Source: Nitrospirota bacterium
Lineage (GTDB): Bacteria; Nitrospirota; Thermodesulfovibrionia; SZUA-242
DNA: 40,537 nucleotides
Assembly: GCA_027021335.1 (NCBI GenBank)
Contig: JALUUO010000063.1
Location: 1 to 40,537, forward strand
Reading direction: 5' to 3'
Position numbers and translations under genes: made by a program. The notes below the pieces were generated by a model. It had not been told where the DNA came from. It did not search any database and saw only the letters and a program-made list of their open reading frames with translations. Shown here one piece after another: positions 15,415 through 35,169 of the stretch (positions within the stretch are counted from its first letter, which is position 1; every line of letters begins with the position of its first letter).

Positions 15415-15763
15415 TGGTGGAGGCGGGGGGAATCGAACCCCCGTCCGAAAGCGCTTCACTCAGGCATCTACATGCTTAGCCGGCTTTTTGGTGTCTCGGA
15501 TTTTCGGACGCCAGCAGGCGGGCTTCCGGGTCTCCCAGTTTCCTTAAGTCTCATCCCGAAGGCCGGAAACAGCTCCTTCAAGGACCAGCCTGTAGTCGGT
15601 GCCCCTTCCAGGATCCAGGCTCTCCCGGAGGGACATGACAGCTTTAAGCTGCCAGCGCCAGTTCGTTGTTGGCGTTTGTGTTTGTTCCGCCTGTTTTACG
15701 AGGTAACGGACCTCGGCATGCTTCCCGAGCTTCGACAGCCCCCGTCGAAGCCAAGTCGCCCCC
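15415..15763 (-). ncRNA. ssrA: Transfer-messenger RNA (tmRNA)
   Basis: tmRNA rescues stalled ribosomes and adds a degradation tag. On the minus strand the 5' end reads GGGGGCGACTTGGCTTCGAC, and the 3' end has the TTTCGGACGGGGGTTCGAAT T-arm and CGCCTCCACCA, with CCA encoded at 15415-15417. The first and last seven bases pair as the acceptor stem with one G-U. The segment CCTCGTAAAA precedes the tag reading frame as in other tmRNAs. The frame ends ANNELALAA and stop (15644-15673); with the preceding codons the tag could begin as TNANNELALAA. The ALAA tail is the usual protease signal. It is 349 bases long and lies 18 bases downstream of smpB. The 3' end borders the defence island. Confidence 0.96.
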
Positions 15764-25560: not shown

Positions 25561-25636
<76 letters not shown>

Positions 25637-31588: not shown

Positions 31589-33814
31589 ATGTGCGCCGAA
31601 TTGAATAACACAACCGATTCCAAGTCTCAGGACATAGGTCTTCTAACAGAACTTGTTAAAGAACTTAACGTCTCACGTCGTAATGTAACATCCTACCCAA
31701 AAGACCATCCTTTAATAAAAAACTCGTTGACCAAGGCCATCAGCCTGCTAAACAGCATCCTGGATACGCGTGACCGGGTGACTTTCGGTGTGGTCAAGGA
31801 CTCTCTTATGGTCTGGCAGACCTATCTGGATAATAAGAATCCGCTTTATCGTGATTTCGCAACAACCCTTTTCAACCGCGGTATAGCTGCCGTCACGCTT
31901 ATCAGGGGCCTGAACGAAACTGAACTGCTGATGTTCAACGAACTTCTGAACATGGATCCTGATGAAATAGTCGAGAAGGGTGGAATTGAAAGCCTTGTAA
32001 ACAGTATCGGACTCCTTCATATACAGGTAATAGCAGTCGACTACAGTCTGCTTGGAACTAATGAAGAACATCTTATCGATGGCTTCTCAGGCAGGCCTAT
32101 TCCTCTCTGGGAAGGCTTTGTTTACGGCCTTATGCAGGGAAACCTCGATCCTGACGGCAAGCAGCTCTCCAGCACGTTCGAAATAGACCCGGAAACCCTT
32201 GCAAGGGTTTTAAACGAGATGCCTGAAGATTCTTTAACCGCCAAAACCGAAAGTTATGAGCAGACAATCACCTCATTCATGCAGAAACTAGGCGGAGAAT
32301 CCATGGAGGGAGAATCCGAGTCCGAAAGTCATTCTGCCGCTCCGGCTGCTGACAATTTCTCTAGATTCGTAGGTAAACTAAAACCCGATTTAAAAAGGCA
32401 GTTTCTCTCCGGCATGCTTAAAACCATGGCGCCAAGACAAGAACTGGCCAAGAAAGTTATGCCAAAACTTCCATCAAAACTTGTAATGGAAGCCTTTGAG
32501 GAGGTCAACAAACAGGAAACATACATACCACCAACCACGCTGTCTGTGCTTAAGAAGCTTGCAAATATTGCAACAGACCCAAGTGCCGGATCGCCAACCG
32601 TTGCAGCGGAACGAAAAGACAGTGAAAGCGACATGAAGGAAAAACTCCGTACGATTTTCAACGAAGATGCCGATTTTGCGTTTCTTCCAAAATCATATCA
32701 AGACACGCTGGACAGTATTGTGAAGACCGAGAAGATTTCGGCATCTGAGGAAGAGGAAATTATGGAGATTTCCAGAACAGTGGACAATCTTGCGGTTGAG
32801 CCCCAGGTTGCATGGATTATCTTCGAACTGATGAAATACAACCCAACCGAAGAAGAACTGGAGGTTCTAAAAAGAAACATCCAGGATCTATGCAAATACT
32901 TCCTGGAAACCGGAGATATATCAACATTAATCGGAATACATGATAAATATGCCGGCAACGGCAAAGAAAGCCTGCCCCCGGTTTGTGCTTCAGGTGATAT
33001 ATGTCAGTTTGGTCAAGCCGAATTTCTTGAAGAACTTCTTAACGGTCTCAGCTTTTGGGATAAAGAAAAACATCCTGAAATCAGCAGGCTTATCCGAAAA
33101 ATAGGTGACCCTTTTATCAATCCGATGCTGGATATGCTGGCGGTGGAACCCTCAATCTCGATAAGGAGATTTCTTATCGATAGACTATCAGAGATGGGAA
33201 CTGCGGTCCGGGATGCTATTATCCCAAGGTTAACGGATCAACGCTGGTATTTCGTCAGGAACCTCGTGCTTATACTCCGCAACATTGGAGACCCGAGCGT
33301 GCTGGAACACCTGCATAATAAAATAAATCACTCGCATCCCAAGGTACGGTTGGAAACGCTCAAAACAATGCTTTATCTTCAGGATCCGGAATCTGAAAGA
33401 ATGTTGATCAATGACATGGAGAGCCGGGAGTCTGATGTACGTGTTAACGCAGTTCAACTTGCTTCGTACAGCAAAAGTAAGGCTATCTTCGATAAATTGA
33501 AAAGTGTTTTGAGTAAAAATCCTCTGATAGAGCTGGACCTCGACTTTAACTTTAAAAAGGCGGTGATTAATGCACTTGCGGATATAGGCAACCCTGAGAT
33601 TATTCCAGTACTGGCACGTTTTATTGAGTCCAGAAGCCTATTCCACCCGGTACTTCACAATCGTTTAAAACCGGAGGTTGTGCGCAGCCTTGGACGTTAC
33701 CCTGAAAATGACGCTGTTACACTTTTGGAGAAAATCGCAAGTTCGAAAAACGAAGAGCTGGCCAAGTTGGCCCGGGACACTATTCAGACAGCAAAAATTA
33801 GAGGCCGTTTGTGA
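31589..33814 (+). CDS. HEAT-repeat protein with an N-terminal module shared with the next gene
   Basis: The 741 residues fall into three parts. Residues 1-120 are a conserved-looking module: NVTSYPKDHPLIKNSLTKAI, VTFGVVKDSLMVW, LFNRGIAAVTLIRGLNETEL. The middle is helical and acidic (about 220-410). Residues 480-740 are HEAT-type repeats, for example IGDPSVLEHLHNKINHSHPK and DIGNPEIIPVLARFIESRSL. HEAT arrays are protein-binding scaffolds. No enzyme motif, signal peptide or membrane helix is visible. The gene overlaps the HD-GYP gene by 4 bases (GTGA), so the two products are probably made together. The start ATG has no clear ribosome site. A small A/T hairpin (31512-31532) lies in the gap after metG. 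Confidence 0.8.
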   Translation: MCAELNNTTDSKSQDIGLLTELVKELNVSRRNVTSYPKDHPLIKNSLTKAISLLNSILDTRDRVTFGVVKDSLMVWQTYLDNKNPLYRDFATTLFNRGIAAVTLIRGLNETELLMFNELLNMDPDEIVEKGGIESLVNSIGLLHIQVIAVDYSLLGTNEEHLIDGFSGRPIPLWEGFVYGLMQGNLDPDGKQLSSTFEIDPETLARVLNEMPEDSLTAKTESYEQTITSFMQKLGGESMEGESESESHSAAPAADNFSRFVGKLKPDLKRQFLSGMLKTMAPRQELAKKVMPKLPSKLVMEAFEEVNKQETYIPPTTLSVLKKLANIATDPSAGSPTVAAERKDSESDMKEKLRTIFNEDADFAFLPKSYQDTLDSIVKTEKISASEEEEIMEISRTVDNLAVEPQVAWIIFELMKYNPTEEELEVLKRNIQDLCKYFLETGDISTLIGIHDKYAGNGKESLPPVCASGDICQFGQAEFLEELLNGLSFWDKEKHPEISRLIRKIGDPFINPMLDMLAVEPSISIRRFLIDRLSEMGTAVRDAIIPRLTDQRWYFVRNLVLILRNIGDPSVLEHLHNKINHSHPKVRLETLKTMLYLQDPESERMLINDMESRESDVRVNAVQLASYSKSKAIFDKLKSVLSKNPLIELDLDFNFKKAVINALADIGNPEIIPVLARFIESRSLFHPVLHNRLKPEVVRSLGRYPENDAVTLLEKIASSKNEELAKLARDTIQTAKIRGRL

Positions 33815-34971
33815 GCAAACAATCCAGAAAAGCCGAACTGGAAACATTTATAGGCAAGTTAGTCAGCGCTGTGTCAAATGCCGCCCTGTATTCACCCGAA
33901 CATGTTCAGGTAAAACGACTTATCTCAATCGCTTACTCATGCCTGGACGATGCTATGGACTCAACAGGCGAAATATCTCTTATGATTATTGATGACGAGT
34001 TGATAAGCGAAGGAAGCCCTGTCGGCAACAACATGTACCTGAACAGATTCGCTCAAATGCTTAAAAACCGCGGCATAGAAACCATAAGAATAATTACCGG
34101 GGTTACGCCGGAAGAACTGCTGATGCTGGTAAAATCTTTGTCCATGCAGCGCGACAGGCGACGGGAAGTGCGCTCTTCAGAACATATCCGCCTTGGAAGG
34201 GTCGAGGTAAGAGTAGCCGGCAAAGAAGATAACGGTTCCGCTTCCAAAGAGGCGGTGTCAGTGCCTAAATTAACGCTCTCCGATCTTTCAGTTCATGAGC
34301 AGACGAAATTGATGGAAATTTACGAGGGAGTGAAAAAGCATAACAAATTGAGTGTCGCAGGTATTTATGATGTTGTCTCGAATTTCATAGACGTTTTCAA
34401 GCAGGAAGCCGACCCTTTCATGGCCCTTTCCGACCTGCGCAATGCTGACGAGTACACATTCACCCACTCCACCAATGTCTGCATTCTGAACCTCTCTCAG
34501 GCCATGTCAATGGGCATTGAAGGACAACTGCTTCACGATATAGGCATTTCAGCCATGCTTCACGATATAGGCAAACTGTTTATTCCTGAGGAAATTCTGT
34601 CAAAAAAAGGCCAGCTGAGCAATTCTGAATGGGAACAGATGAAACTGCACCCGGTAAAAGGAGCACAACACCTGTTGGATACACCGGGAGTGCCGAGACT
34701 GGCTGTGGCTGTGGCCTTTGAACACCACATGCGCTTCAACTTTGAGGGGTACCCTAAGGTGCCTAAGGGATGGAAACAGAATATCTGCAGTCATATAACC
34801 GCAGTATCCGACTTCTTTGATGCCATGCGCTCCAGGCGTTCCTACCGTGATCCGATGGAGGCTGAAAAAATCGCCTCAATAATGCACAGCAGAGCCGGTC
34901 TCGACCTGAACCCGCTGCTGGTAAAAAACTTTTTCCGTCAGCTTGACAACGTCTCAACAAAACAAGAATAA
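33811..34971 (+). CDS. HD-GYP domain phosphodiesterase
   Basis: The 386 residues end in an HD-GYP domain (about 200-375). The HD pair is in AMLHDIGKLFIPEEIL, the further histidines in KLHPVKGAQHLL and FEHHMRFNFEGYP, and GYP itself is intact, so it should be an active enzyme that degrades cyclic di-GMP or a related cyclic dinucleotide. Residues 1-115 are not a receiver domain. They resemble the first 120 residues of the HEAT protein upstream: LYSPEHVQVKRLISIA, IDDELISEG, LKNRGIETIRIITGVTPEEL. Translation starts at a GTG that overlaps the upstream stop, which implies coupling. The pair may form a signalling complex in which the HEAT protein is the scaffold. Confidence 0.9.
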   Translation: MSKQSRKAELETFIGKLVSAVSNAALYSPEHVQVKRLISIAYSCLDDAMDSTGEISLMIIDDELISEGSPVGNNMYLNRFAQMLKNRGIETIRIITGVTPEELLMLVKSLSMQRDRRREVRSSEHIRLGRVEVRVAGKEDNGSASKEAVSVPKLTLSDLSVHEQTKLMEIYEGVKKHNKLSVAGIYDVVSNFIDVFKQEADPFMALSDLRNADEYTFTHSTNVCILNLSQAMSMGIEGQLLHDIGISAMLHDIGKLFIPEEILSKKGQLSNSEWEQMKLHPVKGAQHLLDTPGVPRLAVAVAFEHHMRFNFEGYPKVPKGWKQNICSHITAVSDFFDAMRSRRSYRDPMEAEKIASIMHSRAGLDLNPLLVKNFFRQLDNVSTKQE

Positions 34972-35093: not shown

Positions 35094-35169
35094 GCCGAGA
35101 TAGCTCAGTTGGTAGAGCAGCTGATTCGTAATCAGCAGGTCGTCGGTTCAACTCCGATTCTCGGCTCCA
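35094..35169 (+). tRNA. tRNA-Thr (anticodon CGT)
   Basis: A 76-base cloverleaf: acceptor GCCGAGA pairing with TCTCGGC, D-arm AGCTCAGTTGGTAGAGC, anticodon stem GCTGA/TCAGC with loop TTCGTAA, T-arm GTCGGTTCAACTCCGAT, CCA encoded. Anticodon CGT reads the threonine codon ACG. A TTGACA at 35043-35048 may be its -35 box, but the -10 is poor. Confidence 0.97.

Follow-up and report, generated by a model that had tools for sequence, protein, structure and literature searches.

Two overlapping genes in a Nitrospirota genome, gene A for a HEAT-repeat protein and gene B for an HD-GYP protein, begin with the same unnamed domain and stay paired across many species, and for these reasons the two proteins probably work as one unit. 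They lie on the forward (+) strand of a stretch of 40,537 nucleotides (GenBank assembly GCA_027021335.1, contig JALUUO010000063.1, positions 1 to 40,537), hereafter the window. Gene A (31589-33814; 741 residues from an ATG start, with orthologues) encodes the N-terminal module, a middle region and HEAT repeats; gene B (33811-34971; 386 residues from a GTG start) encodes the module, a linker and an HD-GYP domain. Judged from sequence, we hold it an even call that A and B are subunits of one cytosolic cyclic-dinucleotide phosphodiesterase unit joined via their modules. The observation extends further, to a conserved two-gene signalling unit, within HD-GYP signalling, whose proteins share an unnamed domain and whose enzyme has a diagnostic variant of the active site.

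A shared N-terminal module

The module spans residues ~12-153 of A (31622-32047, +) and residues ~2-136 of B (33814-34218, +). A BLASTP alignment of A 1-230 with B 1-170 gave 33 identities in 115 positions (29%, 47.8 bits, E 9e-12), and the Smith-Waterman score of the two modules, 114, was equalled by none of 1000 shuffles (mean 32.1, standard deviation 5.0, maximum 61). Separate profiles, from 77 A modules and 70 B modules, were aligned by hhalign over 130 columns with a probability of 99.2 and E 1.7e-19. The modules of A and B are homologous, chance similarity being ruled out by the shuffles and the profile-profile match. The AlphaFold2 models, made from an A-only alignment for the A module and a B-only alignment for the B module, were confident (predicted local distance difference test, pLDDT, 88.3 and predicted template-modelling score, pTM, 0.81 for A; 89.1 and 0.80 for B). 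Agreement of the two folds was judged on the order of the predicted helices (H) and strands (E), which is H H E E H E H (H H) E in A and H H E E H E H E in B. The first two helices are long in both models, and the A module has two extra short helices (124-140) ahead of its last strand.

An earlier note on this DNA had proposed a common N-terminal module of ~120 residues, to be given up if the profiles of the two N-termini failed to match or the predicted folds differed. As the profiles match significantly and both models, at pLDDT 88-89, have the same order of helices and strands, the proposal stands, and the motif pairs quoted for it are real and align to each other. Its length was set slightly short, for the last strand (A 145-149, B 126-129) takes the module to ~130-140 residues.

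The module is an unnamed alpha/beta domain that no Pfam or NCBIfam family covers. A Pfam search of A and B matched no family in either N-terminal region; among 54, 70 and 77 members there was no Pfam match above the curated cut-off over the module, only isolated weak hits such as a single PolB_N match (0.0009) in the 77 A modules, and among the 54 modules no NCBIfam match passed its curated cut-off there. The earlier view that the module is not a receiver (REC), PAS or GAF domain is right at the level of sequence profiles: none of these three was among the matches listed for the 54 modules at E<=1 (25 of 32 Pfam families), nor among the Pfam families listed for the 70 and 77 modules at E<=0.01. 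A PDB profile search with the module gave nothing credible, the best row being the designed protein Octarellin V over a short repeated stretch with a stretch E of at least 0.6.

At the level of fold, neither module model retrieved a PDB chain at E<=0.001 in Foldseek. A kinship with GAF domains (PelD, phytochromes) may exist at this level, the weak top Foldseek rows of the A model being GAF-containing proteins; these rows, from GAF-containing PelD, reach E 0.047 at best with a template-modelling score of ~0.2 and poor superposition, and the module has no Pfam GAF match among those listed. The best VIA-align rows lay within background, both for the B module (Z 4.9, 77 residues, root-mean-square deviation 4.6) and for the A module (Z 5.5 with ribosomal S20, 79 residues, deviation 3.6), with no GAF domain prominent in the rows listed. 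A description of the module or of the A-B pair was not found in titles and abstract starts of the open-licence PubMed Central (PMC) literature, which is weak evidence of absence.

Conservation of the gene pair

A profile scan of genome contigs with the A alignment gave 79 loci, labelled Nitrospirae/Thermodesulfovibrio, Geobacteraceae/Desulfuromonadales, Deltaproteobacteria and Deferribacteres. Ten loci without downstream room were dropped, and in 68 of the remaining 69 testable A genes the next gene bears the module; at the exception, L146, two frames failed and were counted as one gene. The second gene overlaps A in 42 of the 68 pairs and begins within 20 nucleotides in 20 more, with the start codon taken as the most upstream ATG, GTG or TTG, so that overlaps may be over-counted. 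In the window the start of B and the stop of A share the tetranucleotide GTGA (33811-33814, +; GTG at 33811-33813, TGA at 33812-33814), and a ribosome-binding-like AGAGG was read within the 3' end of A, 6 nucleotides before the GTG (33800-33804, +). The overlap and the reading frames are as the earlier note had them, and a tight overlap is usual in relatives.

A batch from the window's own phylum, selected solely by frame length, agreed: a module-bearing open reading frame came next in 62 of the 63 module-HEAT genes that had room (3 of 66 had too little downstream sequence and were set aside; two of the partners are truncated, and several loci duplicate genes in the other samples). These two figures are less biased than a total of 194/208, which mixes loci picked by A, by B, and 51 picked as pairs. 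Modules were present in 98 of 148 genomes of the own phylum, in an even number in 81 of the 98 (counted by eye), and in 79 of 198 genomes of the phylum of a Geobacteraceae-labelled genome. In an overlapping sample of 118 genomes, 52 carried modules, 130 in all: 48 adjacent pairs account for 96 of them and two tandem proteins for 4, and 30 stand alone; at least 4 of these lone modules are pairs with a below-threshold partner (G199, G185:C3, G223:C16, G242:C7). A peculiarity of this assembly is ruled out by the pairs and modules in many other genomes. A larger conserved operon is ruled out as well, since the upstream genes tmk-holB-ricT-metG are common only to the window and L132 among the 79 loci; no conserved third gene adjoins the pair, the top neighbour family, the ABC ATPase superfamily, occurring in 16 of the 79. 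A plasmid search with A gave no match.

The window's genome has exactly 4 modules, in 2 pairs. The second pair lies on another contig (G000:C95; L002 1489-2901 and 2941-4119) and consists of a HEAT protein (565-codon open frame) followed by an HD-GYP protein of 470 residues with an 8-nucleotide overlap; a gene for a CHASE2 and adenylate/guanylate cyclase protein lies just downstream on the opposite strand. A close relative of the same family, G002, is ~100% complete and has no module, so the pair can be lost. At L083, L134, L142 and L048, gene A is split in two frames or has an internal stop, these being pseudogenes or assembly errors.

The HEAT protein and the HD-GYP enzyme

The assignment of A to HEAT proteins and of B to HD-GYP proteins in the earlier note was right. 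HEAT_2 matches A above its gathering score (58.4 against 27.7 bits, 8.9e-16) in three stretches, the top-scoring of which covers residues 650-726 (33536-33766, +). Protein A is like other bacterial HEAT-repeat proteins in its C-terminal repeats and unlike them in its N-terminal module and near-constant HD-GYP neighbour; a match to an NblB-like NCBIfam family was weak (24 bits against a cut-off of 300). In B, HD_5 scores 60.4 bits against a gathering score of 27.2 (2.3e-16; residues 218-363, 34462-34899, +), and the PDB relatives include PmGH (4mcw, 7.6e-23) and V-cGAP3 (5z7c, 4.9e-16). Hydropathy gives no candidate membrane helix in either protein (the highest 19-residue means are 1.46 for A and 1.09 for B), so both are probably cytosolic.

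Protein B shares with the HD-GYP phosphodiesterases (PmGH, V-cGAP3, RpfG type) the HD_5 match, the metal-binding HD motif (H251-D252; 34561-34566, +), the GYP motif (G313-Y314-P315; 34747-34755, +) and 7 of the 8 PmGH metal ligands. Residues H219, H251, D252, K255, H280, H305 and H306 and the GYP motif are kept in all 104 module-bearing HD-GYPs that were aligned, and D334 in 103, the remaining one having an X; these correspond to the PmGH metal ligands and to K225 (K255 in B) in PMC4159591. The eighth ligand, E185, is replaced by Y215, which matches a Y/F subfamily described in that paper. The position of D213 (PmGH D183) is D in just 49 of the 104.

The difference from these phosphodiesterases is clearest in the loop ahead of GYP, where B has EHHM (304-307; 34720-34731, +) in place of the canonical HHE. 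Its loop, HHMRFNFEGYP, departs from the consensus HHExxDGxGYP, which is not required for the fold or for the name HD/GYP; because the full consensus is absent, we place B in a divergent HD-GYP subfamily and not among the canonical enzymes. HHE is absent from all 104 module-bearing HD-GYPs, 101 of which have EHH and then one of M, L, I, R or Q, whereas xHHE was seen in 16 of the 17 HD-GYPs classed as module-less, a small sample mostly from the window's genome; the exception, L243, has a divergent module, which a one-sequence search matched at E 4.8e-10, and adjoins a module-HEAT gene. A cruder pattern count gave HHE in 0 of 180 readable module-bearing HD-GYPs, with 36 more unreadable by the pattern, and in 13 of the 17 module-less ones (4 without). 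In the sequences compared, the EHH[M/L] loop is diagnostic of module-bearing HD-GYPs. These also differ from the known enzymes in their partner gene, which encodes a HEAT protein, and in their N-terminus, where a module outside Pfam takes the place of REC, GAF or PAS. The predicted substrate of B is probably a cyclic dinucleotide, cyclic di-GMP (c-di-GMP); as V-cGAP3, by name a phosphodiesterase of cyclic GMP-AMP (cGAMP), is among the PDB relatives, the substrate is not settled as c-di-GMP.

Other proteins that carry the module

Five proteins of 1367-1447 residues combine two tandem modules with HEAT repeats: two lie side by side at L226 (2050-6393 and 6896-10999, both on the - strand, one of them cut by the end of the stretch), and one each at L227 (3039-7334), L229 (3530-7774) and L269 (2367-6611). 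The four that were scanned begin with GGDEF and AAA_16 domains, which also precede a single module and HEAT repeats at L237, L255, L256 and L257. At L228 (5014-10056, +) and L254 (3920-6676, +), the module is joined to HEAT repeats, a cyclic-nucleotide-binding domain and PilZ. A further group has the module on proteins of ~600 residues whose C-termini are mostly unassigned to families (L230, L231, L233, L235, L236, L259), with GGDEF above cut-off in L230, PelD_GGDEF below cut-off in L235 and neither in the other four. Except at L231, these genes directly follow a Ser/Thr kinase gene, and a PP2C phosphatase gene directly follows that of L259. The listing of fused domains proposed in the earlier note thus yielded HD-GYP, HEAT, GGDEF-AAA_16, cyclic-nucleotide-binding and PilZ. 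Because of these partners and the kinase neighbours, the module, as far as domain annotation goes, is one of signalling proteins, chiefly those of the c-di-GMP circuit, and is usually accompanied by HEAT repeats. The proteins that bear it have domains for synthesis (GGDEF-AAA-HEAT), breakdown (HD-GYP) and binding (HEAT-cyclic nucleotide-PilZ) of the messenger.

Two module lineages and a proposed joining of A to B

Our best tree held 88 modules (44 A and 44 B, 22 pairs from each of two length types), and in it the A and B modules were parted by one branch (97/79) that was present in 96% of bootstrap trees. This tree carries a warning of few columns and long branches, and a constraint that put A1 and B1 together was not rejected (p-AU 0.07). 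A previous tree of 75 modules was less clean, A2, B1 and B2 requiring 2-4 changes each, and a FastTree of 245 modules had A1 and A2 together and B1 and B2 apart. The 153 complete pairs comprise 71 of a short A with a long B, 66 of a long A with a short B, and 16 mixed ones. The best tree favours A-type and B-type modules as separate, specialised lineages that do not exchange, and the simplest reading is a single duplication of the module, after which the pair was inherited and duplicated as a unit, the copies never swapping places.

In the two-subunit reading, coupled translation of the overlapping genes would allow A and B to assemble; the A-type module would dock on the B-type module, or the module of B would dock onto A; and the HEAT solenoid of A would position the phosphodiesterase at a partner protein, or gate it by means of one, such that the messenger is degraded locally. 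In favour of this reading stand the homology of the modules and their like order of helices and strands, the near-constant adjacency and close spacing of the genes, the lack of a conserved third gene, the A/B split of the best tree, the retained metal ligands of the enzyme, the 12 GGDEF places of the genome, and the five proteins with two modules in a single chain. A physical complex of A and B is likely, and that the module is the joint between them falls a little short of an even prospect. The earlier note had suggested that the two proteins sense the same input or dimerise through the module; the homology and the gene coupling hold, and the part on input or dimerisation stays a conjecture. 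More tentatively, the module may be a new pairing domain of cyclic-dinucleotide signalling, in which specific A/B heterodimers bolt the phosphodiesterase to a HEAT solenoid and EHH[M/L] marks the enzymes that need a scaffold. If true, this would amount to a scaffolded local-signalling system in bacteria.

Several results weigh against the two-subunit reading. In underpowered mirror-tree tests, the partial correlation between A and B modules was weak over the 61 short pairs, at 0.09 (a value reached by 27 of 300 permutations), though 0.39 over the 17 long pairs (reached by 2 of 300); that between the B module and HEAT was 0.55 in the short pairs, the highest value there, and 0.39 in the long ones. 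A coupling analysis of 171 pairs (effective number 134.5) is without power, since its positive control, the contacts within domains, did not stand out either. The tandem modules of the GGDEF proteins group with each other, as sisters, among the A modules of the tree, and do not combine an A-type with a B-type. Lone module-HEAT genes (L059/L277, L232, L234, L240, L258, L260, L261, L271) and orphan module-HD-GYPs (L241, L242) occur, so a partner is not indispensable, and shared ancestry with a common operon would be enough to hold the two genes together.

Because the tree favours two non-exchanging copies, docking of unlike modules would fit better than one interchangeable sensor. In the latter case each module alone would bind the same cytosolic ligand, perhaps a nucleotide, and A and B would respond jointly without contact, which we regard as unlikely. 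The placement of the module at the N-terminus or between the domains of several outputs (HD-GYP, HEAT, GGDEF-AAA, HEAT-cyclic nucleotide-PilZ, and a GGDEF-like protein next to kinases) is typical of an input domain. However, although Y36, H40 and N84 are invariant in the A-module alignment, the B-module and 54-module alignments have no invariant column and hence no invariant polar set; the separate lineages of the best tree, and the company of HEAT or of a HEAT partner that the module mostly keeps, also speak against a common input.

Docking of the B module on the HEAT solenoid of A, and not on the A module, would fit the B-module/HEAT correlation of 0.55, which tops the short pairs and ties with that of the A and B modules in the long ones, and HEAT/B-module pairs are enriched 1.3-1.8 fold among the top couplings. 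Since the mirror-tree and coupling tests were underpowered and the coupling control failed, we consider this arrangement improbable. We think it no more probable that A and B form no complex at all, the module being a homodimerisation domain or folding cap that was duplicated with the operon while HEAT and HD-GYP proteins act separately. Homodimers are formed by HD-GYP proteins such as PmGH and DvhD (PMC13090378), and the orphan A and B genes agree with separate action; yet adjacency with overlap is near-universal across two phylum samples, and in the best tree neither module type has taken the place of the other.

Finally, that B is an inactive phosphodiesterase serving as a cyclic-dinucleotide receptor, its state relayed by A, is quite improbable, for despite the departing loop, the variable D213 position and the precedent of degenerate HD-GYP receptors such as DvhD, virtually all of the 104 sequences retain 7 of the 8 PmGH metal ligands as well as K255, whereas DvhD has lost its ligands (PMC13090378). 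DvhD, a c-di-GMP receptor of Desulfovibrio described in that paper, resembles B in joining an HD-GYP domain to an N-terminal regulatory part and differs from it in being a membrane receptor with PAS and periplasmic domains, B being predicted cytosolic by hydropathy.

The two-subunit reading bears on how a cell separates its signals, which is an open question for one with about a dozen GGDEF and nine HD-GYP places; the window's genome has 12 and nine, respectively. A conserved scaffold-enzyme pair offers a small two-gene system for testing local c-di-GMP signalling in bacteria of the Nitrospirota and Deltaproteobacteria types, on which knowledge is scant. With a named profile of the module, proteins that are now just 'HEAT repeat' or 'HD domain' would be re-annotated.

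Elsewhere in the window there are a transfer-messenger RNA gene with the tag ANNELALAA (15415-15763, -) and a tRNA-Ala gene (25561-25636), and a tRNA-Thr gene (35094-35169) directly follows gene B.

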